DNA of 64,000 nt from an uncultured Prevotellaceae bacterium (GTDB lineage Bacteria; Bacteroidota; Bacteroidia; Bacteroidales; Bacteroidaceae): the NCBI GenBank assembly GCA_902776195.1, contig CACYPF010000011.1:62001-126000 (forward strand), in the 5' to 3' direction. Positions 1,230-42,874 of the stretch are shown piece after piece. Position numbers and translations under genes: made by a program. Every line of letters starts with the position of its first letter. The first letter of the stretch is position 1. Under the pieces are notes generated by a model, which did not search any database, was not told where the DNA came from, and saw nothing but the letters and a program-made list of their open reading frames with translations.

Positions 1230-4193
1230 TTAGAACCTTGGACGTCCGAAGCCACCGCCCCCACCGGGACGACCGCCAGGACCACCGAAGCCACCACCCC
1301 GGCGACCACCAGGTCCACCCTCATGTCCTCTCGGGCCTCCATTCTTACCACCGAAGATGTTCAGCCGATAGATGACATGCAGCATCGCATAGTTGGTAAT
1401 AGCATTATACTCCGTATCGCTGCGACGCATGGCATCCACCGTACGACTGAATGTAGACTGCTGATGGAGGATGTCATACATCTGAAGCGAGAGTGTCAGC
1501 GCATTCCCTCGCAGGAACGACTGTGACACCTGTGCGTTCCATATCAGCTCATTGGTATTCATCGACGCATCGTTATATCCACGGCGACTATTCATATTCA
1601 TGCTCGTTGACAGTTGCGTACCCCAAGGTGCTGTCAGTTGCAGACTGCCACCGTACGAGAATGTCCAGGTGTCGAGGTTGTTATTACTCTGCAACTCACT
1701 ACGGGCATGCATAAACTCCAGCGAACCGTTCAGCTCTACCTCCAACCAGTCATTACGATAGCTGCCGGCAAGGCGCTCTCCGATTGTCGTCGTACGGGTT
1801 GTCGATTTCTGGGAGTCTTCATTCCTGCTGACACTTACATATCCCACGTTATTATTATATCGGAGCGTTGTAAACGTGTTGACATTGAAGTAACCCGCAG
1901 AGTCGATGGCAGTATTGAACATAAACATACCGAACGTGTTCCAGTTGCCGTTGATATTCTCCGGTCTGATGGTACTTCCACCCGACTGCTCGTTATACGT
2001 CACCATATTAGAGATAGAGTTACGTGTTGTCGAGAAATTGACGTGCGCCATGATACTCCGCTGATGGTTCTGGATATAGTTATTATAGAACAGGCGGAAG
2101 TTCTGTGTGAACGAGGGTTTAAGTCCCGGGTTACCCTTCCGGATGTTCAGCGGGTCACTATCATCCGTGATGTCCAACAGGTCACTCATTGACGGCTGAC
2201 TGCTGTTGGCACGGTAGGTGAAGCGCAACTGGCTCACCTTCGAGATTTTCCAGCGGAAGTCGGCTGTAGGTGCGAAATTCGTCACCGTGCGTACTGTATC
2301 GGTATGCACGCCCTGATAGTCTTGTGTGAAATGCGAGCGCTGCGGCAGCACCTGGAAGCCCACATTCAGATTATAAGCCTTACGGACGATGCGTAACATA
2401 ATCTCTGCCGTATGGTTGTAGTTACGATATTCTGAGAAGCGGCTCAGTTTGTCATCCTTATAAGAATCATAAGGATAGCCGACCTGTCTCAGGTAGTCAT
2501 CCCATCCACGATATTGGGGCTCGATGCCAAAAAAGTCGATATACTTTTGGGTGAATATATTGCTAAAATCATATGTAGCACGGTCACTTTTCCTATAACT
2601 ATACTGGTACTGGTAACTGAACTGCAGGTATGTCTGTCGGAAGATAGGCTCGCTATAGGTGGCACGGATGCCATAGTTCCAGTTTTTCGTCGGTGTCACC
2701 GCATAGCGGTTTGTCTGATGGGTAGAGTCCTCCCCATGCTGGTTCACCAATTGGAAATACTCCACCAGACTATTAGAAAACGACTTATCCATGCCGTCTC
2801 CCACATTACCGGAGAAACGCAGGGTGACATTCCTGCCACTGTTGTTCAGCCTACGGTTCAGTTGCAACCATCCCCCCATACTCTTCGAGTCGCTATAGGT
2901 AATGGAGTTACTCCGGTCCCTGTTGATCAAGACATCCTCGTCAACGAGTGTCCCCAACGCACTATCGTCCAGTGGGTCCTTCACCCACCGGTATGGGTCA
3001 GCATCCATCGTGAGGGAGATTCCCTCCGATAAGCCATCACTTGAGTTGTAATTGAACTGTGGGCGCATCATGATATTCGTCAACGAGTCAGGTGTCCATT
3101 CCAAGCGGAAACGTGCATCCCAACTGTTTGAACGGGAGAGATTGCTGCGCAGACTGTTTTTGAACGTAGACGAAGACCCCGTCATGAAATTCTCCGAAGA
3201 GGTGCGTACCACGGCATCCCCATCGTTATGGTTCCAGCGGATGCTGGCATCAAACTTCAAGCGGTCTTTCTTCTCGTAGTTCAGGTTGAAGCCCGCCATT
3301 TTCGTTGCTGTCAGACCTTGTCTGCCGCCTCCGAAACGACCACCACCGCCGCCAGGGAATCCCATATCGTTGACATTATTGGCACTCAGGGGAACAAAAA
3401 TCTTCAGGTCGGAGCTCTGCATACCAGCAAAGATACGACCGCTATAACGATGACGGGTTCCTGCCGCCAAGTCGGCATTCACCATATATCCTTTATTCAT
3501 ACCCCGCTTGATGCCAAAGTCCAGCACGGTCTCCTCCTCACCATCGTCGATACCACTGACACGGGCAAGGTCACTCTTCTGGTCATAAGCCCTCACCCGC
3601 TCAACGATAGACGTAGGCAGGTTTTTCATTGCCGTCTTCGTGTCACCCGTCATGAACTCCTTACCGTCAATCAGGATTTTCTTCACCTCCTTACCATTGA
3701 TGGTCACCTTACCAGCGTCATCCACCTGTGCGCCAGGCAGTTTACGCACCAGTTCCTCTATGACCGATCCTTCTGGGGTACGATAAGCTGAAGCGTTATA
3801 TACAAAAGTATCTTCTTTCAGCGTCACCTTGGAAGCCTGTCCTGTCACCGTTGCTCCTTTCAGCATAATAGCATCAGGGGACAAATCGATTGTTCCCAAA
3901 GCAATATCCTTGTCAGCAGACACTTTGATGGTCTTGGTAAACGGTTTAAATCCCACACAGGTTATCTGAACAATATAGGAGCCTGCAGCAGGAGCTTTCA
4001 CACGGAAAAATCCATTCAAGTCAGTGAGCGAACCCGTCACCATCGTACTGTCCTTTTTCAATAATCGGACAGTAGTCTGAGCCACCGGCTCCTGAGAGTC
4101 ACTCTCTAACACCTTACCGGTAATGTTTCGTTGTGCCATAGCCTGTATTCCCGATACAGCCATCAGCATAAACAGCAAAAATTTCTTCATCAT
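1230..4193 (-). CDS. Outer-membrane beta-barrel protein with carboxypeptidase-regulatory-like N-domain
   Basis: A 987-residue TonB-receptor-like barrel protein. A signal peptide (MMKKFLLFMLMAVSGIQAMAQ) is followed by a CarboxypepD_reg-like domain (residues about 24-110, NITGKVLESDSQEPVAQTTV), a plug-like segment (about 115-210, with KKILIDGKEF) and a long beta-rich barrel with many aromatic-ended strands. This is the architecture of the 'outer membrane beta-barrel family protein' group (OMP_b-brl_3) of Bacteroidota. Unlike SusC there is no SusD partner next to it. The last 40 residues are almost only Gly, Arg and Pro (GGPRGHEGGPGGRRGGG...), and a shorter Gly-rich insert (GGGGGRFGGGRQG) occurs near residue 285. 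Two ATGs abut at 4193/4190, so the exact start is uncertain by one codon. Substrate unknown. Confidence 0.85.
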   Translation of the reverse strand: MMKKFLLFMLMAVSGIQAMAQRNITGKVLESDSQEPVAQTTVRLLKKDSTMVTGSLTDLNGFFRVKAPAAGSYIVQITCVGFKPFTKTIKVSADKDIALGTIDLSPDAIMLKGATVTGQASKVTLKEDTFVYNASAYRTPEGSVIEELVRKLPGAQVDDAGKVTINGKEVKKILIDGKEFMTGDTKTAMKNLPTSIVERVRAYDQKSDLARVSGIDDGEEETVLDFGIKRGMNKGYMVNADLAAGTRHRYSGRIFAGMQSSDLKIFVPLSANNVNDMGFPGGGGGRFGGGRQGLTATKMAGFNLNYEKKDRLKFDASIRWNHNDGDAVVRTSSENFMTGSSSTFKNSLRSNLSRSNSWDARFRLEWTPDSLTNIMMRPQFNYNSSDGLSEGISLTMDADPYRWVKDPLDDSALGTLVDEDVLINRDRSNSITYSDSKSMGGWLQLNRRLNNSGRNVTLRFSGNVGDGMDKSFSNSLVEYFQLVNQHGEDSTHQTNRYAVTPTKNWNYGIRATYSEPIFRQTYLQFSYQYQYSYRKSDRATYDFSNIFTQKYIDFFGIEPQYRGWDDYLRQVGYPYDSYKDDKLSRFSEYRNYNHTAEIMLRIVRKAYNLNVGFQVLPQRSHFTQDYQGVHTDTVRTVTNFAPTADFRWKISKVSQLRFTYRANSSQPSMSDLLDITDDSDPLNIRKGNPGLKPSFTQNFRLFYNNYIQNHQRSIMAHVNFSTTRNSISNMVTYNEQSGGSTIRPENINGNWNTFGMFMFNTAIDSAGYFNVNTFTTLRYNNNVGYVSVSRNEDSQKSTTRTTTIGERLAGSYRNDWLEVELNGSLEFMHARSELQSNNNLDTWTFSYGGSLQLTAPWGTQLSTSMNMNSRRGYNDASMNTNELIWNAQVSQSFLRGNALTLSLQMYDILHQQSTFSRTVDAMRRSDTEYNAITNYAMLHVIYRLNIFGGKNGGPRGHEGGPGGRRGGGFGGPGGRPGGGGGFGRPRF

Positions 4194-5453: not shown

Positions 5454-5481
5454 CGGGAGGACGTGTCCCGCTTATATTTTT
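5454..5481 (+). terminator. Possible terminator after aroB
   Basis: Five-base GC stem CGGGA / TCCCG (5454-5458 with 5466-5470) followed by CTTATATTTTTTTC. The stem is short, so this is a weak call. Confidence 0.35.
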
Positions 5482-5491
5482 TTCTTATTTT

Positions 5492-5523
5492 TTTGGAATG
5501 TCAGAATTTTTATATTACCTTTG
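5492..5523 (+). promoter_or_regulatory. Promoter of the uxs-permease pair
   Basis: A TTTGG box near 5492-5496 and TACCTTTG at 5516-5523 with about 19 bases between, the usual Bacteroidota arrangement. The start codon at 5556 follows about 30 bases later. Confidence 0.7.
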
Positions 5524-5555
5524 CAGTATCAATTCAATTACTGAAATCAAAAGCT

Positions 5556-6494
5556 ATGAAAAGAATCTTAGTAACTGGCGGAGCCGGATTCATAGGCTCG
5601 CACTTATGCGAACGCCTCGTCAACGAAGGCAATGACGTGATTTGCATCGACAATTTCTATAGTGGTTCCAAGGAGAACGTATGGCACCTGATCGGAAAGC
5701 CTAACTTTGAGCTGGTACGCCATGATGTCATCAATCCCTATTGGGCAGAAGTGGACGAGATATTCAATCTCGCATGTCCTGCCTCTCCTATCTATTACCA
5801 GAATGACCCGATACAAACCACTAAGACCAGTTTCTTCGGTGCCTACCATATGCTGGGACTGGCACGCCGAACGAAGGCAAAGATTCTTCAGTCATCAACC
5901 AGTGAGGTATATGGTGACCCTAACGTACACCCACAACCCGAAAGCTACTGGGGTAATGTGAACCCCATTGGACTGCGTTCCTGTTATGATGAGGGCAAGC
6001 GTGTCGCTGAGACGCTCTTCTTCGATTACCATAGACTACACAACGTTCGCACCAAGGTCATCCGCATATTCAACACCTATGGTCCCCGCATGGCAGTGAA
6101 TGACGGCCGTGTGGTATCCAACTTCGTGGTACAGGCACTGCGCGGTGAGGATATCACTATCTACGGTGATGGTCAGCAGACTCGTTCTTTCCAGTATGTA
6201 AGTGATTTGATTGAGGGTATGCTCCGTGTAATGGACACTGACGACAGCTTCACTGGTCCTGTTAATCTCGGAAACCCTGGTGAGTTCACCATGCTTGAAC
6301 TGGCAGAGAAGGTGATTAAGAAGATTGGAGGTAAGAGTAAGATTGTGTTCCGCCCTCTGCCGAGTGACGATCCGAAGATGCGCCGTCCGGACATCACCGT
6401 CGCAAAACGAGAATTAGGATGGGAGCCCAAGGTATCCCTGGACGAAGGCCTCGATCATATCATCGCTTATTTCCGCGATTATCTGAAACTATAA
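5556..6494 (+). CDS. uxs: UDP-glucuronate decarboxylase (UDP-xylose synthase), extended SDR family
   Basis: Likely converts UDP-glucuronate to UDP-xylose with bound NAD+. The 312-residue protein starts [19 protein letters not shown] (Rossmann GxxGxxG at residues 8-13), has the [10 protein letters not shown] segment with the catalytic Ser/Thr, and the YxxxK pair in SCYDEGKR. These features and the [19 protein letters not shown] segment are typical of UXS rather than of 4-epimerases. An upstream in-frame ATG at 5463 is rejected because it lies before the promoter. The SLC13 permease follows after 16 bases, probably in the same transcript without obvious functional link. No capsule genes adjoin it. 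Confidence 0.9.
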
Positions 6495-6510
6495 AACATC
6501 TGACAAGTCT

Positions 6511-8310
6511 ATGGAAACAGAACTTTTTTGGGGCTTCACACTCCACGCATGGATTACCATCGTAACAGTCCTAGGAATGTTCATAACACTCCTATGCACT
6601 AAACTGCGTACAGACCTCGTCTTCTTGTGTGCCATCGGTGTTTTATATGTCACTGGTGTCCTTGATGCCAAAGAGGCATTTTCCGGTTTCAGCTCCACCT
6701 CGGTAGTCATCATTGGGGTATTGTTTATCGTCGTGGCAGGACTGACTCATACGGGAGTACTGCAATGGATAGTCAAAAACCTGTTAGGGCAACCCAGTTC
6801 TTATGCCAAGGCGGTAGTCAGGCTGATGCTCCCAGTGGCTGCACTCAGTTCGTTCTTGAGTAACACCACCGTCGTCGCTATGTTTGTCAACATCGTGAAG
6901 ATGTGGTCGAAGAAGTTAGGGGTGTCTCCGTCCAAATTGCTAATCCCATTAAGTTATGCGTCTGGCATGGGTGGTATATGCACGCTGATCGGCACACCTC
7001 CCAACCTGATCATCTCTGGATTATATACCGAAAAGACGGGGGATACCATGAATGTATTAGCGACAGCAATTCCCGGACTATTCTGCCTTTGCGTCGGTGT
7101 ACTCTCTGTTATCGCCTTACGAAAGTTGTTACCAGAGAGGAAAGTCCCTGAGTCTGCCTTCGAAGCGACAACCGAATATACTGTCGAGTTGTTAGTACCA
7201 TCGGATAATCCATTTATCGGTAAGACATTGGGAGAAGCAGGACTTTTCAACGTCAAAGGTGGCTCTCTGTTGGAGTTTTACCATTTCGACAACGTGCCGT
7301 CTCCGCTTACCCAGGATGAGTTCATCCTGGGAGGTGACCATCTGGTCTATGCCGGACAGATTGATGAACTACTGGAACTGAAAAACACACATGGACTGGT
7401 AAGTGCCAATCACCATGTGTTCTCCCTGGACGAGTTGGACAAAAACCGTCAGCTCCGCACAGCATACATCACTTTTGGCAGTCCTTTGATTGGCAGGACC
7501 ATTGAGAACAGCAACTTCGAGCATGACAATAACATGACGTTAGTCGCTGTTGCCCGCTGTGGAATACGTATTAATGAAACTCCTCGCAAAGCGGTGCTAC
7601 GGGCTGGCGACACCTTACTATTGTCGTGTTCCCCGCAAATGAATATCAATACTGACAAGCTATCGTCGCAATTACAGTTCTTCGATAACTCCCAGATACC
7701 TAATATCAACTGGAAGACTACTGCCTCCTCAGTTATTATGCTGGCAATGGTTGCCATTTCCGCCCTCAACATCATGCCCCTGCTGCAATGTGCCTTCATC
7801 GCTGCCGCCGCTATGCTTATCGTAGGCTGCTGCACACCAGCACAGGCGATGAAGTCGATTAATGGGGAAATACTGATGGTGTTTGCCGGTAGTGTAGTAC
7901 TGGGGCTCGCGATCCAGAAGACGGGAATAGCAGAACGCCTTGCCTTCGGCATCCTTGACATCTGTGGCACCAATCCACTTGTCGTGATGACTGCGATTTG
8001 TCTGGTGGGCACCTTTATCACGGAGTTTATATCCAACACGGCAGCTGGTGCCATGTTCTTCCCAATCATGTACGAGGCAGCAGAAAAAATGGGCTATGAG
8101 CCTTATACTTTCCTCATTGCCCTGATGATTAGTGTTAGCAGTAGTTTCGCCACACCTATCGGCTCTCCCACGCACATGCTGGTATATGGTCCTGGCGGTT
8201 ATCGGTTCAGCGACTTCATGCGTATTGGTCTCTTGATGAATTTCATTATTCTCATTGCCAATATTTTCATTGTGAACATCGTCTATCCACTCACACCGCT
8301 ACAACCGTAG
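6511..8310 (+). CDS. SLC13/DASS-family permease with two TrkA-C (RCK_C) domains
   Basis: A 599-residue inner-membrane transporter. About five hydrophobic segments (residues 12-200) with the family motif SNTTVVAMF and GTPPNLI, then two soluble RCK_C domains (about 222-292, TEYTVELLVPSDNPFIGKTL, and about 315-375), then a second membrane half with SNTAAGAMFFPI and GSPTHMLVYGPGGY. The repeated SNT and G-P/T-P-x-N signatures identify the DASS fold used for dicarboxylate or sulfate uptake with Na+. The substrate cannot be read from the sequence. It follows uxs by 16 bases. Confidence 0.85.
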   Translation: METELFWGFTLHAWITIVTVLGMFITLLCTKLRTDLVFLCAIGVLYVTGVLDAKEAFSGFSSTSVVIIGVLFIVVAGLTHTGVLQWIVKNLLGQPSSYAKAVVRLMLPVAALSSFLSNTTVVAMFVNIVKMWSKKLGVSPSKLLIPLSYASGMGGICTLIGTPPNLIISGLYTEKTGDTMNVLATAIPGLFCLCVGVLSVIALRKLLPERKVPESAFEATTEYTVELLVPSDNPFIGKTLGEAGLFNVKGGSLLEFYHFDNVPSPLTQDEFILGGDHLVYAGQIDELLELKNTHGLVSANHHVFSLDELDKNRQLRTAYITFGSPLIGRTIENSNFEHDNNMTLVAVARCGIRINETPRKAVLRAGDTLLLSCSPQMNINTDKLSSQLQFFDNSQIPNINWKTTASSVIMLAMVAISALNIMPLLQCAFIAAAAMLIVGCCTPAQAMKSINGEILMVFAGSVVLGLAIQKTGIAERLAFGILDICGTNPLVVMTAICLVGTFITEFISNTAAGAMFFPIMYEAAEKMGYEPYTFLIALMISVSSSFATPIGSPTHMLVYGPGGYRFSDFMRIGLLMNFIILIANIFIVNIVYPLTPLQP

Positions 8311-36529: not shown

Positions 36530-37672
36530 ATGTACGATCAAATTCGGGAAGATACCCTCTTTATAATATTATACAGCATGGTGACAGCTATGGCATTGAT
36601 GTCCAGTTGTTATATGCTGCTCCGTCGTGCCAATGCCTTTGCCCCCGACATAACGTCGCCAGTACGCTTACGTCGCTGGACAGCAGTTTTCTTTGCCTCC
36701 GCTGCATTGAGCCACTTTTGGTATATGCCGATATTCTTTCATACCTCAATGGAGGATATTATGATGACCGACCTTACAGGCGGATTGCTTGACAGCATGA
36801 CGATTTTTCCTTCGGCAATCATCGTCATGCTCAACATGCTGCAAGACCGCAGGCGACCGCTGTGGCCTATCGCTTTGATGATAGCACCGTTTGTCGCTGG
36901 AGGGGTATTCAGCGTTGCCACCCTTAGTTATGCTCTTATCCCGATGTTATATGTCTATATGCTGCTGTTGGGAGTATGCCTAGTCATATATATGGTACGC
37001 GCGACAAAACAATACGGACATTGGCTGCGCAACAATTATGCCGATCTAGAGCATAAGGATGTCTGGCAGAGTTTTGTAGTACTGGCCTTCATACTGCTAT
37101 TGTTCGTTTTCTATGCGTTTATAAGCCAAGGTCCGCTTTCCCAATACGCCTTGCAGGTGTTTGACATCGTGCTTATCGGCTATTTCCTGTGGCGGGTAGA
37201 AACGCTAAGCGACCTGAGCATCCCTGTTAATGATACGGCAGAAGAAATGCCCACTACTGAGAAAGTGGAAGACAATGACCTTTCATTATCCACCTGTAAT
37301 CGCCCGGCTTTGCCGCCTGGCATGTCCAAGAACATCGGGCTATTGCTTCAGCAGCGTTGCATAGATACGCAACTCTATTTACAGCACGACATGACCCTTG
37401 CCCAACTTGCCAAATCCATCGGTACCAACCGTCTTTATCTCAGCCAGTATTTCTCCAGTCAGGATATGAATTATAATACCTATATCAACGATTTACGTAT
37501 CAACCATTTTGTCGGTCTCTATCGCGAGGCTTTAGACACTCAGCGTTCTTTCACCATCCAGCAGTTGGCTTTAGAGAGTGGCTACCGCAGTTATAGCACC
37601 TTTAGTGATGTCATTAGGCGCAAGACGGGAAAGTCGGTGAGAGCATGGATGAAAGAGCTTGGCGAACCATAA
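36530..37672 (+). CDS. Membrane-embedded AraC-type transcription regulator
   Basis: 380 residues. The first 235 hold about six to seven hydrophobic helices (for example LFIILYSMVTAMALMSSCYML and FVVLAFILLLFVFYAF), then a linker, then a C-terminal HTH_18 domain (about 275-378) with MTLAQLAKSIGTNRLYLSQYF and a second helix-turn-helix at IQQLALESGYRSYSTFSDVIRR. This type senses through the membrane without a separate sensor. Promoter TATCTTTG at 36465-36472. A pair of 21-bp direct repeats begins two bases after its stop codon, and the amidohydrolase genes follow, so it is the likely regulator of that region. Confidence 0.87.
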   Translation: MYDQIREDTLFIILYSMVTAMALMSSCYMLLRRANAFAPDITSPVRLRRWTAVFFASAALSHFWYMPIFFHTSMEDIMMTDLTGGLLDSMTIFPSAIIVMLNMLQDRRRPLWPIALMIAPFVAGGVFSVATLSYALIPMLYVYMLLLGVCLVIYMVRATKQYGHWLRNNYADLEHKDVWQSFVVLAFILLLFVFYAFISQGPLSQYALQVFDIVLIGYFLWRVETLSDLSIPVNDTAEEMPTTEKVEDNDLSLSTCNRPALPPGMSKNIGLLLQQRCIDTQLYLQHDMTLAQLAKSIGTNRLYLSQYFSSQDMNYNTYINDLRINHFVGLYREALDTQRSFTIQQLALESGYRSYSTFSDVIRRKTGKSVRAWMKELGEP

Positions 37673-37673
37673 A

Positions 37674-37715
37674 GTTACGAAATCTGCAAAATAAGTTACG
37701 GAATCTGCAAGAATC
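37674..37715 (+). promoter_or_regulatory. Operator candidate: two 21-bp direct repeats
   Basis: GTTACGAAATCTGCAAAAT... (37674-37694) and GTTACGGAATCTGCAAGA... (37695-37715), exact period 21 bases, two helical turns. The second ends 46 bases before the -7 box at 37761. The first unit recurs unchanged at 40117-40137. AraC-type activators commonly bind direct repeats with this period. Confidence 0.7.
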
Positions 37716-37718
37716 TGA

Positions 37719-37757
37719 CCCGCAAGCCAATGATGTCATCATGGTTTGCGGGATTTT
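37719..37757 (+). terminator. Terminator of the AraC gene
   Basis: CCCGCAAGCCA pairs with TGGTTTGCGGG (one G-T wobble), followed by ATTTTTG. It lies between the direct repeats and the next promoter. Confidence 0.75.
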
Positions 37758-37760
37758 TGT

Positions 37761-37768
37761 TACTTTTG
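37761..37768 (+). promoter_or_regulatory. Promoter -7 box of the GNAT-amidohydrolase unit
   Basis: TACTTTTG matches TAnnTTTG. No good TTTG box at the usual spacing, as expected for an activator-dependent promoter. Confidence 0.6.
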
Positions 37769-37812
37769 TGAACTTAAAACGACAAAGAAGTTTATAAAAC
37801 GTAATTGGCTAT

Positions 37813-38361
37813 ATGATTATACTCAGAAAACTATCGAAGAGTCACCCGGACATCCCGCTGGTGTGGAAACTTTTCTCTGAATCGTTCCACGAGCATGAGC
37901 GTATCATCTTGTCCGAACTATTGGACTGTCCACAGGCAACTTTATATGGCATTTACCCTGATGAAGAGTCCCATCAGTTTGCAGGATTCTTCATCGTCCT
38001 CGACTGCGAACGAATCGTGTATCTGTACTATTTAGCCGTCTGTCCTGAAATGCGCTCTACCGGCATAGGTGGAAAGGCGCTACACACCTTAATAGACATG
38101 TATAATGGCAGACAGATAACGCTGTCCTACGAAAGCATCCTCCAGCCCAGTGACAACGCTGATCAACGTAAGCGCAGGCAGGCGTTCTATTTACGAAACG
38201 GTTTCCATGAAAGCCCTTGGTATTTTTGCTTTGATGGTACCGAATATGTATTGGCTAGTACAGAAGAACCTATCGATATTGCTGGCGCCAAAGAGATGTT
38301 TTATCAATTTGCCAACTTTGATTCCGATTTTTACACTCATAACATAACAGAAGACAAATAA
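37813..38361 (+). CDS. GNAT-family N-acetyltransferase
   Basis: 182 residues with the GNAT core YYLAVCPEMRSTGIGGKALH (acetyl-CoA loop R-S-T-G-I-G-G) and FYLRNGFHES near the C-terminus. Substrate not evident. First gene after the operator; the amidohydrolase follows after 20 bases and is probably co-transcribed. Confidence 0.85.
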   Translation: MIILRKLSKSHPDIPLVWKLFSESFHEHERIILSELLDCPQATLYGIYPDEESHQFAGFFIVLDCERIVYLYYLAVCPEMRSTGIGGKALHTLIDMYNGRQITLSYESILQPSDNADQRKRRQAFYLRNGFHESPWYFCFDGTEYVLASTEEPIDIAGAKEMFYQFANFDSDFYTHNITEDK

Positions 38362-38381
38362 TCAAATAAAGAAGCAAAACA

Positions 38382-40054
38382 ATGAAAGAGACAGCAGACA
38401 AAGTTTATAGGAACGCAAAAGTTTATTCCGTTGCACTGGATGGAACAGAAACGCATGCGGAGGCACTCGCTATCAAAGACGGCAAATTCGCATACGTTGG
38501 AGATGAGACAGGTGCCACTGAGTGGATTGGTGATGCCACAGAGGTCATTGACTGCAAAGGGAAGAGCGTTATCCCCGGTCTTGGAGATGCGCATTTGCAT
38601 AATGCGCAAGCTACGCTGAAGTACGGCACGTGCAGCTTTAGCGATATTATACCAAATCCTGAGACTGACACCCCCGACGGTGTGGTCAAGCTGATTCAGG
38701 AGAAACTGAAAACCTATGCTGAAGAGCACAAGAATGCCCCTGTGATTAGAGGATTCGGCTGGGATAGAATGTGGTTTGCCGGTGCACTACAGGGCATCGT
38801 GAGACCGTTTACCAGACATGATGTGGATGCGGTTATACCTGATAAACCAGTCGTTCTCACATCGTTCTGCGGTCATCTTGTCTTGCTGAATACGAAGGCT
38901 CTGGAAACTGCAGGTGTTACAAAAGATACTGATGACCATAATGGACTGATCATCAAGGAAGCCGACGGAACGCCCAGCGGCTATATCTCTGAACCTGCCA
39001 TATTCCACCCTATCATTTATAGTATTCCGAACTATGATTTCACGCCGGAGGAGTATCACGACTGCTTAAAGAAAGCGTTTAATGATTTGAACGCAAGTGG
39101 ATACACACTTTTATGCGACTGCCAACAGGTAGAGTCCTCTTATGCTGTCCTTTCAGAAATGGCTAAAAATGGCGAATTTACCGCCAGAGTATCCGGTGTT
39201 CATAATGTCAACGATGCAACAAGGGAGTCGGATTTCGAAAAAGCCATCGCCAACCGCACGAAGTTTGATGTCGATGAGCTCTTTATGGTGGATACGGTAA
39301 AATACTTTGCTGATGGTTCCCTCGCTATGATTGAGCCATACACAGAGAGTGCGTCCGACAAAGAACCAGGCACCAGAGAACCGCTTCTATGGGATGAGGA
39401 GCATCTGAAGGAGTCGATGGCACTTGCCAACAAGGAAGGCTTCAACATCCATACACATGCCATGGGAAGTTATGCCATACGCAGAGTGATTGACTGCTAT
39501 GAGAACGCGCAGCAGTTGTACCCGAATCCCAAAATCAGAAACATCATTGCGCATTGCACATTCATAGAGCCAGAGGATCGTGTGCGTATGGGCAAGAGCC
39601 ATATCATAGCCAGCAATCAGCCCGGTTGGTTCAGTGACAACCCCACCGAAGAACCTGTCATGGTAGCTTGGTGGGGTGAAGATGTATAGACAATGGTGTG
39701 GTGTGTGCTTATGGTTCCGACTTCCCTGTCAATGCCGCTTACGGTCTTGCAGGTATTCAGGTAGCTATGACGCGAAGGCATGTTAAGCAGGATCCGACTT
39801 ATGAGCTGTTCAAGGATTTACCCGCTGCCTTGCCCAATGAGTGTGTATCTTTGAAGGAAGCGCTTCAGGCACATACCATCCATGTGGCATATCAGGCACA
39901 TCTGGAAAAAGTTACCGGCTCCATCGAAGTCGGTAAATCCGCAGAGCTGGTTGTTCTTGATAGTAATATAGAAACCACTCCCGCAGACCATATTCAGGAT
40001 ATCAAAGTGCTTGAAACTTTATTTAAAGGGAAAACAGTATTCAAAAACATTTAA
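38382..40054 (+). pseudogene. YtcJ-like amidohydrolase 1, frameshifted
   Basis: Two frames together give one amidohydrolase_3 protein of about 556 residues. Part one (38382-39689) has the metal-site motif GDAHLHN, FADGSLAMIEP and HTHAMGSYAIRR, and stops at TAG 39687-39689. Part two reads on from the frame that gives IDNGVVCAYGSDFPVNA and ends at 40054 with the family's C-terminal SIEVGKSAELVVLD. Restoring one base near 39685 rejoins the frames (GEDV-IDNGV). No slippery heptamer is present, so this is a mutation or a sequencing error rather than programmed shifting. No signal peptide. Hydrolyses C-N bonds of some amide in family members; substrate unknown. Confidence 0.8.
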
Positions 40055-40065
40055 TTAGCAAAACA

Positions 40066-40137
40066 ATGAAAAAGATTATTCGCTCGACTTTGCTGCTCGG
40101 CTTTGCCAAGGATAAAGTTACGAAATCTGCAAAATAA
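40066..40137 (+). pseudogene. Remnant of a secreted-protein gene start
   Basis: A 23-codon frame, MKKIIRSTLLLGFA followed by KDKVTKSAK. The first 14 residues read as a truncated signal peptide; the rest is just translation of the shared 21-bp operator unit. It looks as if a gene was cut where the operator sequence joined it. Confidence 0.5.
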
Positions 40138-40158
40138 CTCACGAATTCAGCAAGAATC
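40117..40158 (+). promoter_or_regulatory. Operator candidate, second copy of the 21-bp repeat pair
   Basis: The first unit (40117-40137) is identical to 37674-37694, and the identity extends five bases upstream (ATAAA). The second unit (40138-40158, CTCACGAATTCAGCAAGA...) matches the corresponding unit at 37695 in 16 of 21 positions. It also ends 46 bases before its -7 box. Confidence 0.7.
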
Positions 40159-40192
40159 ACGGTTCAAGGCATGAACCGTGATTCTTTTTTTA
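40152..40192 (+). terminator. Strong hairpin between operator and promoter
   Basis: Perfect 15-bp stem AAGAATCACGGTTCA / TGAACCGTGATTCTT with loop AGGCA, followed by TTTTTT. The first seven bases of the stem belong to the second repeat unit. Confidence 0.85.
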
Positions 40193-40203
40193 GGGAATAT
40201 TGC

Positions 40204-40211
40204 TAATTTTG
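40204..40211 (+). promoter_or_regulatory. Promoter -7 box of amidohydrolase 2
   Basis: TAATTTTG; the start codon of the gene is at 40276. As in the first copy, no clear upstream TTTG box at consensus spacing. Confidence 0.6.
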
Positions 40212-40275
40212 TAAGCGCAAAACTTCAAATATGTTCTCTCCATGTAAGCTAATAGACATAACAAATAAGAAAATA

Positions 40276-42013
40276 ATGAAACAAACAGTTCGCATGAGTG
40301 TTAAGAAGATGCTGTCGTGCATCGTAGTTTTGAGTGTTATCATCGCCATGGGTACGCTTGTCTGCTGCTCAAGCAATGACAATCCAAGTAATGGAGTACC
40401 CATTTCCGAAAAGGCTGACCTCGTGGTCTATGGAAAAATTTTCACCTCTGATGACAATAAGGTGGTAGAAGCCTTTGCCGTGAAAGACGGCAAGTACATC
40501 TATGTAGGCGACAAGACGGGAGCCGAAGCCTATGTCGAGGCAGGCAAGACCGAGGTGGTGGACTATACCGGCAAGGGACTTGTAATGCCCGGTTGCGGCA
40601 ACGGACATGCACACTACTCGATGGCTCACTCCGTCAAATTAGTCGGTGCGACAGTAGGATTAGAGGACAATGCCAGCAAGTTCCTGACGGAAATCGTACC
40701 TGCTGCTGTCAAGCAGGCAAGAGACGCAGGGGCAAAAACTATCTTTGGCTTCGGATGGAATCTTCATGTCTTCGAGAGTAATATGCCTACTCGCCAACAG
40801 TTGGATGCCATCTGCAGTGATATTCCTATGTACTTCTCAGACAATGAGGGCTGACGGCACCGTGCTCAAAAAAGATGGAGACATATTAGGTGGTGAGATT
40901 GTAATGGGTACTGACGGCACACCTACAGGCTATCTGAAGGAGCAGGCCGGCACTTACGCACGTTCCTTCTTAGACAATGAAAGTCTCTTTAGCCTTGACA
41001 TTGCAAGTGATATCTTGCCAAAAATCGAGCAGCAACTGTTGTCTGAGGGCTACACCATGTATGTCGATGGTTGGGGCAACTATTACTATAACACTAATTT
41101 CTATCAGGCCGCTCAACAGTTAGACAATGCTGGTGGTATGCACTTCGTGTTGGGCCTGTCCTACGAGATTGAAAGTTGGATGAATATTGACGAAGCCCTG
41201 GCCAAGGCTGCTGACGCCAAGAAATTTGCTTCCACTCGCGTCAAACCGAACTGGATTAAACTCTTTATGGACGGCACGGTGGAGACTGGCACCGGATTTG
41301 TGGATCCGCTCTATCCTGACGGACATCAGGGCCTGCCCAACTGGTCGGAAGAACAACTGACCGACATGACGCGTGTGGCTAATGAAAACGGAGTAACTAT
41401 GCACATACATGCCATGGGCAACAAGGGCGTCACGCGTATTATCAACGCCTTCATCAATGGCGGAAAGGATGAGATGCGTAACACGCTGGTTCACGTGCGT
41501 AATATTGACGAAGCAGATTACAAGCGTATGGCAGACCATAATATCTATGTCACCTCTGGTGTGCTTTGGCATTTTGCTGAGGATGGTTTGGTGGAGCATA
41601 TGCGCGAGCATGGTATCGTTCCTGCAGGTCAGGAAGACAAATCTTATCCGATGAAATCGTATTTTGAAAACGGCATTATTGCGACTACCCACTCGGACTA
41701 TCCTGCAACGAGCGGCAGCCCCGACGACCCGTTTGGCATTATGGAGATAGCCGTGACAGGTATGTTTACAGGAGCGATTGGAAAGCCCTACTGGACAGAA
41801 GAACTCGTCACCCGCGAGCAGGCCATCACCGCAATGACCATCAACATTGCCAAGCAGATGTTCATCGAGGATGAGCGAGGCAGCATCAAGACAGGCAAGT
41901 ATGCCGACTTCCTCCTCGTCACCAAGGATGTGCTTTCGTGTCCTGAGAATGAGATTCACGAGGCCAAGCCCGCAGCCACCTACTTCGAGGGGAAAAAGGT
42001 TTTCTCGATGTAA
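40276..42013 (+). pseudogene. YtcJ-like amidohydrolase 2 (lipoprotein), deletion and frameshift
   Basis: N-part: signal ending VCCSSNDN with a lipobox Cys, then KADLVVYGKIFTSDD, metal motif GHAHYS, up to TGA at 40852-40854 after YFSDNEG. C-part in another frame resumes with RADGTVLKKDGDILGGE and continues normally with LFMDGTVETGTGF, HIHAMGNKGV, THSDYPATS and SIKTGKYADFLLV to 42013. Compared with gene 1, a segment of about 16-20 residues (GHLVLLNTKALETAG there) is missing at the break, so a short deletion caused the shift. Not explained by a single sequencing indel. Confidence 0.8.
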
Positions 42014-42071: not shown

Positions 42072-42420
42072 ATAATCCTGATTACTACTGATGCGATAAA
42101 ATCGCGTTAGGTATAAATATTCAAAATAGAGAGAGTTCTTTGACAGATTGATTGAGATTGACAGAGTCGTGTGGCTTGGTGATGAGTTCTCCCAGTGAGA
42201 CTTTCTCCAGAGCTGAGATTCTAATCAGTGTTGCCACCTCGGTGATGGAGTATGGGCTTTTATAGTTCGCCTTGATTCTGGCGATAATCAGATAGGCGAT
42301 GACTGCCACCCAAAGATGAGTCCGCACAGCATTCTCTGAATACCCCCACAGGGTCTTCACTACGATATTCTGCTTGACCCATTTGAAGAAAACTTCGATG
42401 TCCCACCTATGTCTATATAA
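42072..42420 (-). mobile_element. IS4-family transposase remnant
   Basis: Minus-strand frame 42121 to about 42417 codes for the C-terminal ~98 residues of an IS4-type DDE transposase. YRHRWDIEVFFKWVK fits the Y-(2)-R-(3)-E-(6)-K signature, and RTHLWVAVIAYLIIARIK follows. The N-terminal two thirds are absent: at about 42418 the sequence changes to an amidohydrolase remnant on the plus strand. The left part 42072-42120 has no coding and may hold the element's end. Not functional. Confidence 0.8.
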
Positions 42421-42874
42421 GCAGGAAACCTCAGAGGCGCTGATGTCGAAGGCAGAGATTGCCCGCATTGCCACACAGCGTGCCGAACTGAGTGGTGAGT
42501 ATTTCCATATTGTCGGAGCCAAGGCGTTCCTCGATGGTGTGACCGAGGCACACACGGGTTGGCAGAACCAGGATTATCTGGACCTGCCCGGCTATCACGG
42601 TGTGGAGCGCACGGCTCCAAAGGACATGTTGGGCGGAATATGCCAACCGCGTAATGTCAAGGAGGTCATCACCCGCGAGCAGTCGCTACGTGCCATGACC
42701 ATCAATGTGGCACGTCAGTGGCATCAGGAGCATCGCATGGGTAGCATTGAGTTCGGTAAGATTGCCAACATGGCGGTATTCGATTGCGACTTCCTGCACG
42801 ACGACATCGAGAAGGTTGCACAAGCTAATATCGTTGCCACGATCGTTGATGGCGAGGAAGTTTATAAAGCATAA
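42421..42874 (+). pseudogene. Amidohydrolase 3, internally deleted C-terminal remnant
   Basis: The frame from about 42421 gives SKAEIARIATQRAELSG, KAFLDGVTEAHTGW, then jumps to CQPRNVKEVITREQSLRAMTINVARQ and SIEFGKIANMAVFD, ending at 42874. Against gene 2 the N-terminal half is gone (replaced by the IS remnant) and about 130 residues with metal ligands are missing between TGW and VITREQ, still in frame. No start codon of its own. A decayed third paralogue. Confidence 0.75.

Follow-up and report, generated by a model that had tools for sequence, protein, structure and literature searches.

A family of predicted seven-helix membrane AraC-type regulators and their putative operators in uncultured Prevotella

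Regulators of the AraC/XylS family carry two helix-turn-helix (HTH) motifs per monomer, within a C-terminal domain of about 100 aa, and recognize asymmetric half-sites, as seen at araI1-I2 and at marbox promoters; the two HTHs of a monomer read one half-site between them, at a distance of one helical turn. The araI1-I2 operator of AraC is a direct repeat with a 21-bp period, and HTH1 of MarA reads the GCAC end of its site. In Bacteroides, hybrid two-component systems (HTCS) unite a membrane sensor and an AraC-type output in one polypeptide and regulate nearby catabolic genes; to our knowledge, the operators of Bacteroidota regulators are mostly unknown. Membrane-bound one-component regulation is also typical of the transmembrane transcription regulators (TTRs), such as ToxR, TcpP, and CadC. 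A TTR census (PMC10269533) describes Bacteroidota as rich in TTRs, counts about 56% of them as single-pass, includes hybrid TTRs, and treats the way in which a membrane-bound factor finds and activates its promoter as an open question; the word “AraC” is absent from its main text. Here, we describe a locus that resembles several of these systems. It lies in a window of 64,000 nucleotides from an uncultured Prevotellaceae bacterium (assembly GCA_902776195.1, contig CACYPF010000011.1, positions 62,001 to 126,000 of the forward strand), where a gene at 36530-37672 encodes a predicted membrane regulator with an AraC domain, and where two pairs of direct repeats each precede a promoter (W1 and W2). 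We put the probability at about 0.87 that these pairs are the operators of the regulator, which would be a membrane receptor that activates both promoters. The regulator family, found in gut Prevotella, appears to combine sensor and gene switch in one protein.

Repeat pairs, promoter geometry, and recurrence

The features on which this reading is built are as follows.

36530..37672, forward strand: membrane regulator of 380 aa, with seven predicted transmembrane (TM) helices, a linker, and a C-terminal AraC domain (Pfam, hydropathy, AlphaFold2)
37675..37691, forward strand: putative operator W1, half-site 1, TTACGAAATCTGCAAAA (17-bp fit, sequence match)
37696..37712, forward strand: putative operator W1, half-site 2, TTACGGAATCTGCAAGA, period 21 (17-bp fit, sequence match)
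37761..37768, forward strand: TACTTTTG, presumed Bacteroidetes -7 box of promoter W1, its TA 48 bp past half-site 2 (17-bp fit)
40118..40134, forward strand: putative operator W2, half-site 1, TTACGAAATCTGCAAAA, the same as in W1 (17-bp fit, sequence match)
40139..40155, forward strand: putative operator W2, half-site 2, TCACGAATTCAGCAAGA, period 21 (17-bp fit)
40204..40211, forward strand: TAATTTTG, presumed -7 box of promoter W2, its TA 48 bp past half-site 2 (17-bp fit)

A search of the window placed GTTACGAAATCTGCAAAAT at 37674 and 40117 and a copy with three mismatches at 37695; matches with at most three mismatches number three, relative to 0.02 expected. As the original prediction had described, the repeats form two pairs of period 21 (37674-37715 and 40117-40158), and, when read by eye, the first unit with its flank (the 26-base ATAAAGTTACGAAATCTGCAAAATAA) has the same letters at both sites, while the second units agree in 16/21 bases. 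Likewise, the boxes of the TAnnTTTG type, TACTTTTG from 37761 and TAATTTTG from 40204, each begin 46 positions past the end of a pair (37715 and 40158, respectively), and the DNA between operator and box is indeed unrelated in sequence, with a different hairpin at each site. When 17-bp half-sites were fitted, W1 and W2 alike had a period of 21, with 48 bp between half-site 2 and the TA of the box. The -7 box label of TACTTTTG follows the consensus of the original prediction, which we take to be the accepted one.

Relatives of the regulator were collected as 78 loci from named genome records, which go back to the best 80 matches by similarity among at least 576 relatives; nearly all belong to uncultured Prevotella, Prevotellaceae, Bacteroidaceae, or Bacteroidales, and many record titles give a ruminant-stomach source. 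Fourteen loci that were redundant (90% identity) or had no usable protein were dropped, including L093 and L105, whose frames were not readable and whose stop positions were set by hand from the end of the match. In the 3' region of the regulator, 51 of the remaining 64 loci carry a repeat pair agreeing at 12/17 positions or more before a -7 box, as opposed to 1 of 3,200 dinucleotide shuffles, and 46 of the 64 do so at 13/17 or more, as opposed to none of the 3,200. This de novo scan was blind to the sequence of the repeats, but periods (20-22) and gaps (42-55) were preset. A second set comprised 51 further regulators, mostly from 120 genomes of the genus and with an identity to the first set below 90% (L203 was left out, its full regulator not having been obtained); here, a position weight matrix (PWM) search within 300 bp recovered the operator in 25/51, versus 0/1,020 mononucleotide shuffles, and two more were found by eye.

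Regulator and operator also occur together at the level of whole genomes. Among the 120 genus genomes, the regulator was found in 38 (E <= 1e-30) and the operator in 34 (E <= 1e-6), with 31 of the latter also possessing the regulator where about 11 would be expected (hypergeometric, 1.2e-18). Repeats spread widely without an AraC neighbour would have spoken against the original prediction, and no such distribution was seen, just three of the 34 operator genomes being without the regulator. At the family level, the regulator was detected in 26/251 genomes and 7/30 genera, and the 20 loci taken from this level have the operator downstream (10), upstream and divergent (two), or not at all (eight); 19 of them come from other genera, the divergent L238 comes from the same genus, and L223, one of the ten with a downstream operator, is the training locus L120. 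Since the regulator gene of close relatives normally comes directly before its own target promoter, regulator, operator, and target would make up a compact cassette.

Across 55 sites, half-site 2 lies 47 or 48 bp from the TA of the box in 52, 46 bp in one, and 49 bp in two (32-58 bp allowed), and this length is kept while the spacer sequence varies between subgroups. The period is 21 in 34 of these sites, 20 in 17, and 22 in four (20-22 allowed). In a larger set of 105 sites, 19 of them not beside a regulator, the gap is 46-49 bp in every case (40-57 allowed) and the period is 21 in 72, 20 in 25, 22 in six, and 19 in two (19-23 allowed); this set leans to the profile's own length, making the 55 sites the cleaner evidence. 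The 105 were left from 132 profile matches after 18 had been removed by hand (16 copies of equal score and the partial L069 and L127), together with six that had no standard -7 box and three that were identical. Membership in the class not next to a regulator was assigned by BLAST, and two of its members, L150 and L166, end in regulator-like remnants. At 20/55 sites, the operator begins within the regulator reading frame, and the distance from regulator stop to operator ranges from -59 to +109.

Direct repeats of asymmetric half-sites about 21 bp apart, a trait of AraC/XylS operators, are thus present in this family. With the -7 box at its conventional position, which we take to be the right placement, half-site 2 is centred at about -68, and the orientation of the half-sites comes from the covariation described below. 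As the mark of a class I promoter, we took a reversed site between about -56 and -85, further upstream than the core promoter. With positions counted from the TA of the -7 box, the 55 promoters also have a conserved T-run (-17 to -14) and a G-rich run (-11 to -8); a clear conserved TTTG at the usual -33 place was not seen in them.

Within the own genome, the exact spaced pattern of the repeat core occurs four times, versus none for a reversed control. Profile R1, built from sequence alone with 54 sites, all of other genomes, found seven operators at E <= 7.1e-6 (the next match has 0.007), namely W1, W2, and one each on C33, C17, C8, C6, and C1. A widespread repeat element was considered and ruled out, just seven sites being clear. 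The search for the repeat unit at fixed spacing that the original prediction had called for in this genome and in related ones thus turned out in its favour, with these seven sites and the 51/64 relatives. The assembly holds two further full regulators, on C33 (55% identity) and C17 (54%), making three in all; each of the two directly precedes a repeat pair of the same kind and then hydrolase genes, i.e., two amidohydrolases behind the C33 operator, and a carboxylesterase and an amidohydrolase behind that of C17. By mean half-site mismatches, the seven sites fall into three groups (W1 and W2; C33, C8, and C6; C17 and C1), and we infer that these match the three regulator copies, one each.

The regulator protein and its recognition of half-sites

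The regulator is predicted to be a one-component membrane protein in which a seven-helix part (N-out, C-in) is joined to a cytoplasmic AraC domain. Its TM helices are predicted at about residues 9-34, 45-69, 74-103, 112-131, 137-169, 176-196, and 202-225. Hydropathy across the family gave seven hydrophobic segments with a positive-inside pattern (11 overlapping candidate windows, grouped by eye), and the AlphaFold2 model has seven long helices (mean pLDDT 79.5, pTM 0.58; residues 229-259 below 50), with recognition helices at 301-310 (HTH1) and 355-366 (HTH2). The C-terminus matches Pfam HTH_18/HTH_AraC (E 2e-9); PF12833 and PF00165 are over cut-off in the window regulator and are matched by 35/35 members scanned, HTH_AraC and HTH_18 being the only families that all 35 match. 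A TM region and a DNA-binding domain thus share one chain, the membrane location being a prediction. The best of five matched solved sequences is a “TCP pilus virulence regulatory protein”, an AraC-family regulator that is presumably ToxT.

Besides the HTH models, no Pfam family was matched by more than 5/35 members (Cation_efflux, best E 2.6e-5), and the membrane part received just scattered weak matches among the NCBIfam matches listed. The histidine kinase, receiver, and periplasmic propeller that mark HTCS were not matched by Pfam in the window regulator. HisKA/HATPase and receiver families are not among the 25/46 Pfam families listed for the 35 members, nor are families of the BtsS/LytS type that would match the TM part. 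In open-licence PMC literature, where most listings were off topic, neither a seven-helix AraC family nor these operators were found. At one locus, L038 (355-2613, minus strand), the regulator frame continues without a stop into an open reading frame (ORF) of 752 aa with a tail unlike the AraC ending, and the operator comes after this longer frame.

Half-sites differ between relatives in step with the DNA-binding domain of the neighbouring regulator. The rank correlation of half-site distance is 0.54 with HTH (AraC domain) distance versus 0.06 with TM distance, with a spacer control at 0.25, and in the second set the corresponding values are rho 0.51 with the HTH part and 0.10 with the membrane part. 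Alignment A3 has 54 rows, with L120 left out, and the covariation set is likewise without L120 (by score). Residues 364, 356, and 360 show the strongest covariation with base 3, and residues 364 and 360 that with base 5; all three lie in the modelled HTH2 helix. At bases 11-13, residues 307 and 302 rank among the top covarying columns, and residues 302, 305, and 307 lie in the modelled HTH1 helix. In the training table, residue 360 is linked to base 5 in a simple manner, with D for G in 5/5, L for A in 16/16, and R for C in 4/4 (one C/T).

Prediction was tried on 28 other regulators with 56 half-sites, including the window regulator and both of its paralogs from the own genome. The HTH2 residues predict base 5 in 51/56 (p 0.0005) and base 3 in 34/56 (p 0.024); over the same 56 half-sites, they do not predict base 12 (p 0.20) or base 11 (p 0.09). 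Conversely, the HTH1 residues predict base 11 in 31/56 (p 0.0005) and base 12 in 38/56 (p 0.0035), and for these half-sites they do not predict base 3 (p 0.58), base 5 (p 1.0), or base 13 (p 0.15). Random triples of other variable HTH residues equalled the chosen ones in 4/300 for base 5, 15 for base 3, 10 for base 11, and 32 for base 12, and TM triples did so in 0/300, 4, 1, and 4, respectively. Base 11 shows a large gain over guessing the commonest base (31 versus 17). Taken as a whole, the sequences suggest a code in which HTH2 is linked mainly to the 5' block and HTH1 mainly to the 3' block, partly readable and with one cross-block exception. Since the HTH1 block faces the promoter, the half-sites would stand in reverse orientation. 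Two stronger ideas were dropped. A clean block specificity fails, as the HTH2 residues predict base 13 as well, and domain shuffling, to which an r of 0.05 between HTH and membrane-part distances had pointed, was abandoned, given that the 78 loci come from the best 80 matches by similarity and that the less selected second set gave rho 0.49.

Hairpins and genes behind the operators

Each of the two spacers in the window holds a hairpin, and three genes or broken genes follow the promoters.

37719..37758, forward strand: hairpin (37719-37752) and T-run within the operator-promoter interval, likely intrinsic terminator of the regulator gene (minimum free energy -22 kcal/mol, z -4.64)
37813..38361, forward strand: GNAT acetyltransferase, first gene past promoter W1 (Pfam PF13508/PF00583)
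38382..40054, forward strand: amidohydrolase (Amidohydro_3) split into two open pieces, 38382-39689 and 39698-40054 (ORFs, Pfam)
40156..40191, forward strand: hairpin (40156-40182) with a T-run, likely an intrinsic terminator for the amidohydrolase gene that lies upstream (minimum free energy -17.3 kcal/mol, z -4.98)
40231..42013, forward strand: second amidohydrolase-type gene in overlapping open pieces, 40231-40854 and 40745-42013 (ORFs, Pfam)

At both W1 and W2, a stable hairpin with a U-run lies 3' of a gene on the same strand, as is typical of intrinsic terminators. Spacer hairpins with z <= -2 occur at 36/97 sites with a co-directional upstream gene versus 0/8 divergent ones (Fisher p 0.049), and those with z <= -3 at 26/97 versus 0/8 (p 0.20); a rank test on z gave p 0.012. 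Within the own genome, no significant spacer hairpin was found at the divergent sites C8 and C6, nor at C33 and C17, though the upstream gene of the latter two is co-directional. The hairpins of W1 and W2 are best explained as predicted intrinsic terminators that serve the gene upstream and do not belong to the switch, and a terminator squeezed into a spacer whose length the promoter fixes is the simplest reading. A hairpin between operator and promoter had been remarked upon as odd; its presence stands, and its oddness disappears if it ends the gene upstream. The hairpin arm ATCACGG recurs in 16/105 spacers (e.g., at 40156-40182 of the window), more than an ordinary terminator seems to need, and shared descent may explain this recurrence.

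Among 85 first downstream ORFs, Pfam identified Amidohydro_3 in 23, COesterase in 21, DUF3089 in 17, MACPF in two, and a Na/H exchanger in two, such that ester and amide hydrolases dominate. A regular expression found a lipobox-like start in 45/85. Nine of the 85 (L054, L080, L102, L127, L166, L172, L175, L179, and L180) belong to a family of about 190 aa with a start like MKTRFKKxxKxxDI; L175, the sole member scanned alone, gave no Pfam match. As the targets are mostly ester or amide hydrolases and about half of the first genes have a lipoprotein-like start, it is tempting to speculate that the target enzymes attack the signal itself, which would be a hydrophobic ester or amide.

In the window, the gene at 40231..42013 has a lipoprotein-like start (by eye), and its first piece falls under the Pfam cut-off (E 8.9e-5, 22.6 versus 29.7 bits). 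Each of the amidohydrolase-type genes here (38382-40054, 40231-42013, and 42374-42874) is in two pieces or a remnant, owing to decay or assembly error, and there is overlap between 42374-42874 and the end of a minus-strand DDE transposase frame (42121-42555). Elsewhere in the own genome, the site at 7410-7508 of L016 (G000:C8), with an operator of the C33 type, is followed from 7608 by a run of lipoprotein genes, three of which were scanned and are MACPF; no regulator was found in the 14 kb covered. A MACPF gene stands directly behind a C33-type regulator in genome G007 (L161). Behind the C6 operator, the weakest of the seven own-genome sites, L151 (G000:C6) encodes at 5475-7391 a 638-aa HATPase_c protein with a HisKA match below the cut-off, and the regulator family may thereby feed a two-component system. 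Finally, in L150 (G000:C1:1-8000; site 2924-3021, minus strand), a short 3' remnant of the regulator behind another gene keeps its operator, along with a terminator-like hairpin and a broken-up gene resembling the C33 amidohydrolases (by eye); a full regulator with the half-sites of L150 is present in another genome (L200). Of the small amidohydrolase regulon first proposed, the regulon is supported, and its limitation to amidohydrolases is not, given the carboxylesterase, the MACPF lipoproteins, and the kinase-like HATPase protein.

Mechanism, alternatives, and known systems

Recurrence in relatives, co-occurrence in genomes, and the covariation and prediction of bases from recognition helices strongly support the view, advanced in the original prediction, that the repeats are AraC half-sites of the adjacent regulator. 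On a signal, a membrane dimer would bring two AraC domains together; each would occupy one half-site, with about two helical turns between them and both on the same face of the DNA. With the half-sites in reverse orientation and half-site 2 near -68, the paired AraC domains, positioned at about -68 and -89, may serve as class I activators of the promoter, while the hairpin terminators would stop upstream transcription before it reaches through the promoter. A broader scheme can be put forward only tentatively and is somewhat doubtful: previously undescribed seven-helix receptors would double as transcription factors and sense a hydrophobic ester or amide in the membrane, their own AraC domains, bound to an operator where the receptor gene ends, would turn on the hydrolase that destroys this ligand, and duplication of the cassette with a few changes in the recognition helices would yield new, insulated pairs. 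If so, the DNA code of the family would be readable from sequence.

Several points weigh against the pairs being operators of a membrane activator. Nine of the 64 close relatives have no adjacent site (three of these, L110, L113, and L127, have one elsewhere in the fetched locus), and 24/51 of the more distant regulators have no clear site within 300 bp (three of these, L047, L050, and L051, have one elsewhere in the fetched locus); the expectation that relatives keeping the regulator would also keep the unit is thus borne out for most close relatives and not for these. An operator at E <= 1e-6 is missing from seven of the 38 genomes with the regulator, and the three operator genomes without a detected regulator are metagenome-assembled genomes that are 62-84% complete. 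The hairpin contrast draws on eight divergent sites, with z from mononucleotide shuffles. Regarding the code, bases 11-13 covary equally with residues 278, 280, 349, 352, 368, and 370, which are outside the recognition helices and seem to mark one subgroup; the HTH2 residues also predict base 13 (54/56, p 0.003); and the gain over the commonest base is small for base 5 (51 versus 47), base 3 (34 versus 30), and base 12 (38 versus 33), and nil for base 13 with HTH1 (50 versus 50). L034, with D360 and R364, has A at base 5 and breaks the simplest rule. Furthermore, the tests permute sequences with statistics that ignore shared ancestry, the PWM that located the test sites had been derived from the training set, and the training regulators include L052, a 76% homologue of the window regulator, which is itself one of the 28. 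Finally, activation (as opposed to repression) and dimerisation are steps that we infer.

Three other explanations were considered and rejected. Repression, or a toggling between repression and activation as in AraC, is unlikely: AraC-family proteins are capable of both, but the pair stays clear of the core promoter, its half-site 2 lying 47-48 bp before the -7 box, and the best pair before a -7 box in the 300 bp upstream of the regulators (146 strand-regions) reached just 10/17. The reverse orientation upstream of the core promoter is, moreover, the layout of class I activators according to PMC12052159. Action of the repeats in RNA, whereby the 3' untranslated region of the regulator transcript and its hairpin would control termination or stability, is very improbable. 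That 84/97 co-directional sites come after a regulator gene fits such a role, although this share is inflated because the loci were mostly fetched via the regulator; so does the strong hairpin with a T-run that comes immediately after the repeats at both W1 and W2. The fixed distance of the repeats, however, is that to the promoter (47-48 bp in 52/55), whereas that from the regulator stop varies from -59 to +109; an upstream gene is divergent at 8/105 sites, none of which has a hairpin with z <= -2; the C8, C6, C33, and C17 sites have no significant hairpin; and RNA action does not predict covariation with the HTH helices.

The least credible of the three is that the repeats belong to some other DNA-binding protein or element (e.g., a recombinase, a transposon end, or a nucleoid protein) and lie near AraC genes through shared descent of a mobile cassette. 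Duplication of the cassettes (three full regulators and the 3' remnant with operator on C1), the transposase fragment at 42121-42555 of the window, and the ATCACGG arm in 16/105 spacers are in keeping with such an origin. Against it, in both sets the half-sites follow the neighbouring regulator in its HTH part but not in its membrane part, recognition-helix residues predict half-site bases, and 105/105 sites lie 46-49 bp before a -7 box (six without a standard box having been dropped beforehand). As judged from sequence, this is a real, conserved regulatory architecture of operator and membrane regulator, and the interpretation first offered for one locus extends to a family.

For those who work on uncultured Prevotella, the family yields predictions for regulon mapping: regulator, site, and target are found side by side in natural variants by the dozen, the promoter geometry is rigid, and the code can be read in part. 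It is likewise a natural library for the specificity of AraC domains and a source of candidate sensor parts for gut bacteria, and the hydrolases behind the operators are a lead to the ligand.

Among known systems, the class I marboxes of MarA, SoxS, Rob, and RamA stand in reverse orientation upstream of the core promoter, as here, according to excerpts of PMC12052159 and PMC8811837, the latter of which describes RamA as binding class I and class II sites in opposite directions. Unlike AraC, with its cytoplasmic sugar-binding domain, the sensor here is a predicted seven-helix membrane domain; unlike both AraC and the marbox promoters, two tandem reverse half-sites serve a Bacteroidetes-type promoter, and the operator is at the 3' end of the regulator gene, with 20/55 starting inside the frame. 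TTRs share the one-component, membrane-bound design but are mostly single-pass, whereas the proteins described here have seven helices and an AraC domain. A multi-helix membrane sensor is also found in the 7TM kinase feeders of the BtsS/LytS type (an excerpt of PMC10653868 describes BtsS as a 7TM receptor for pyruvate), but the output here is predicted to be DNA binding by the same chain, without phosphotransfer. As such, operators of the AraC type are known, and what is new is the pairing of an uncharacterised seven-helix membrane sensor with this cassette layout.

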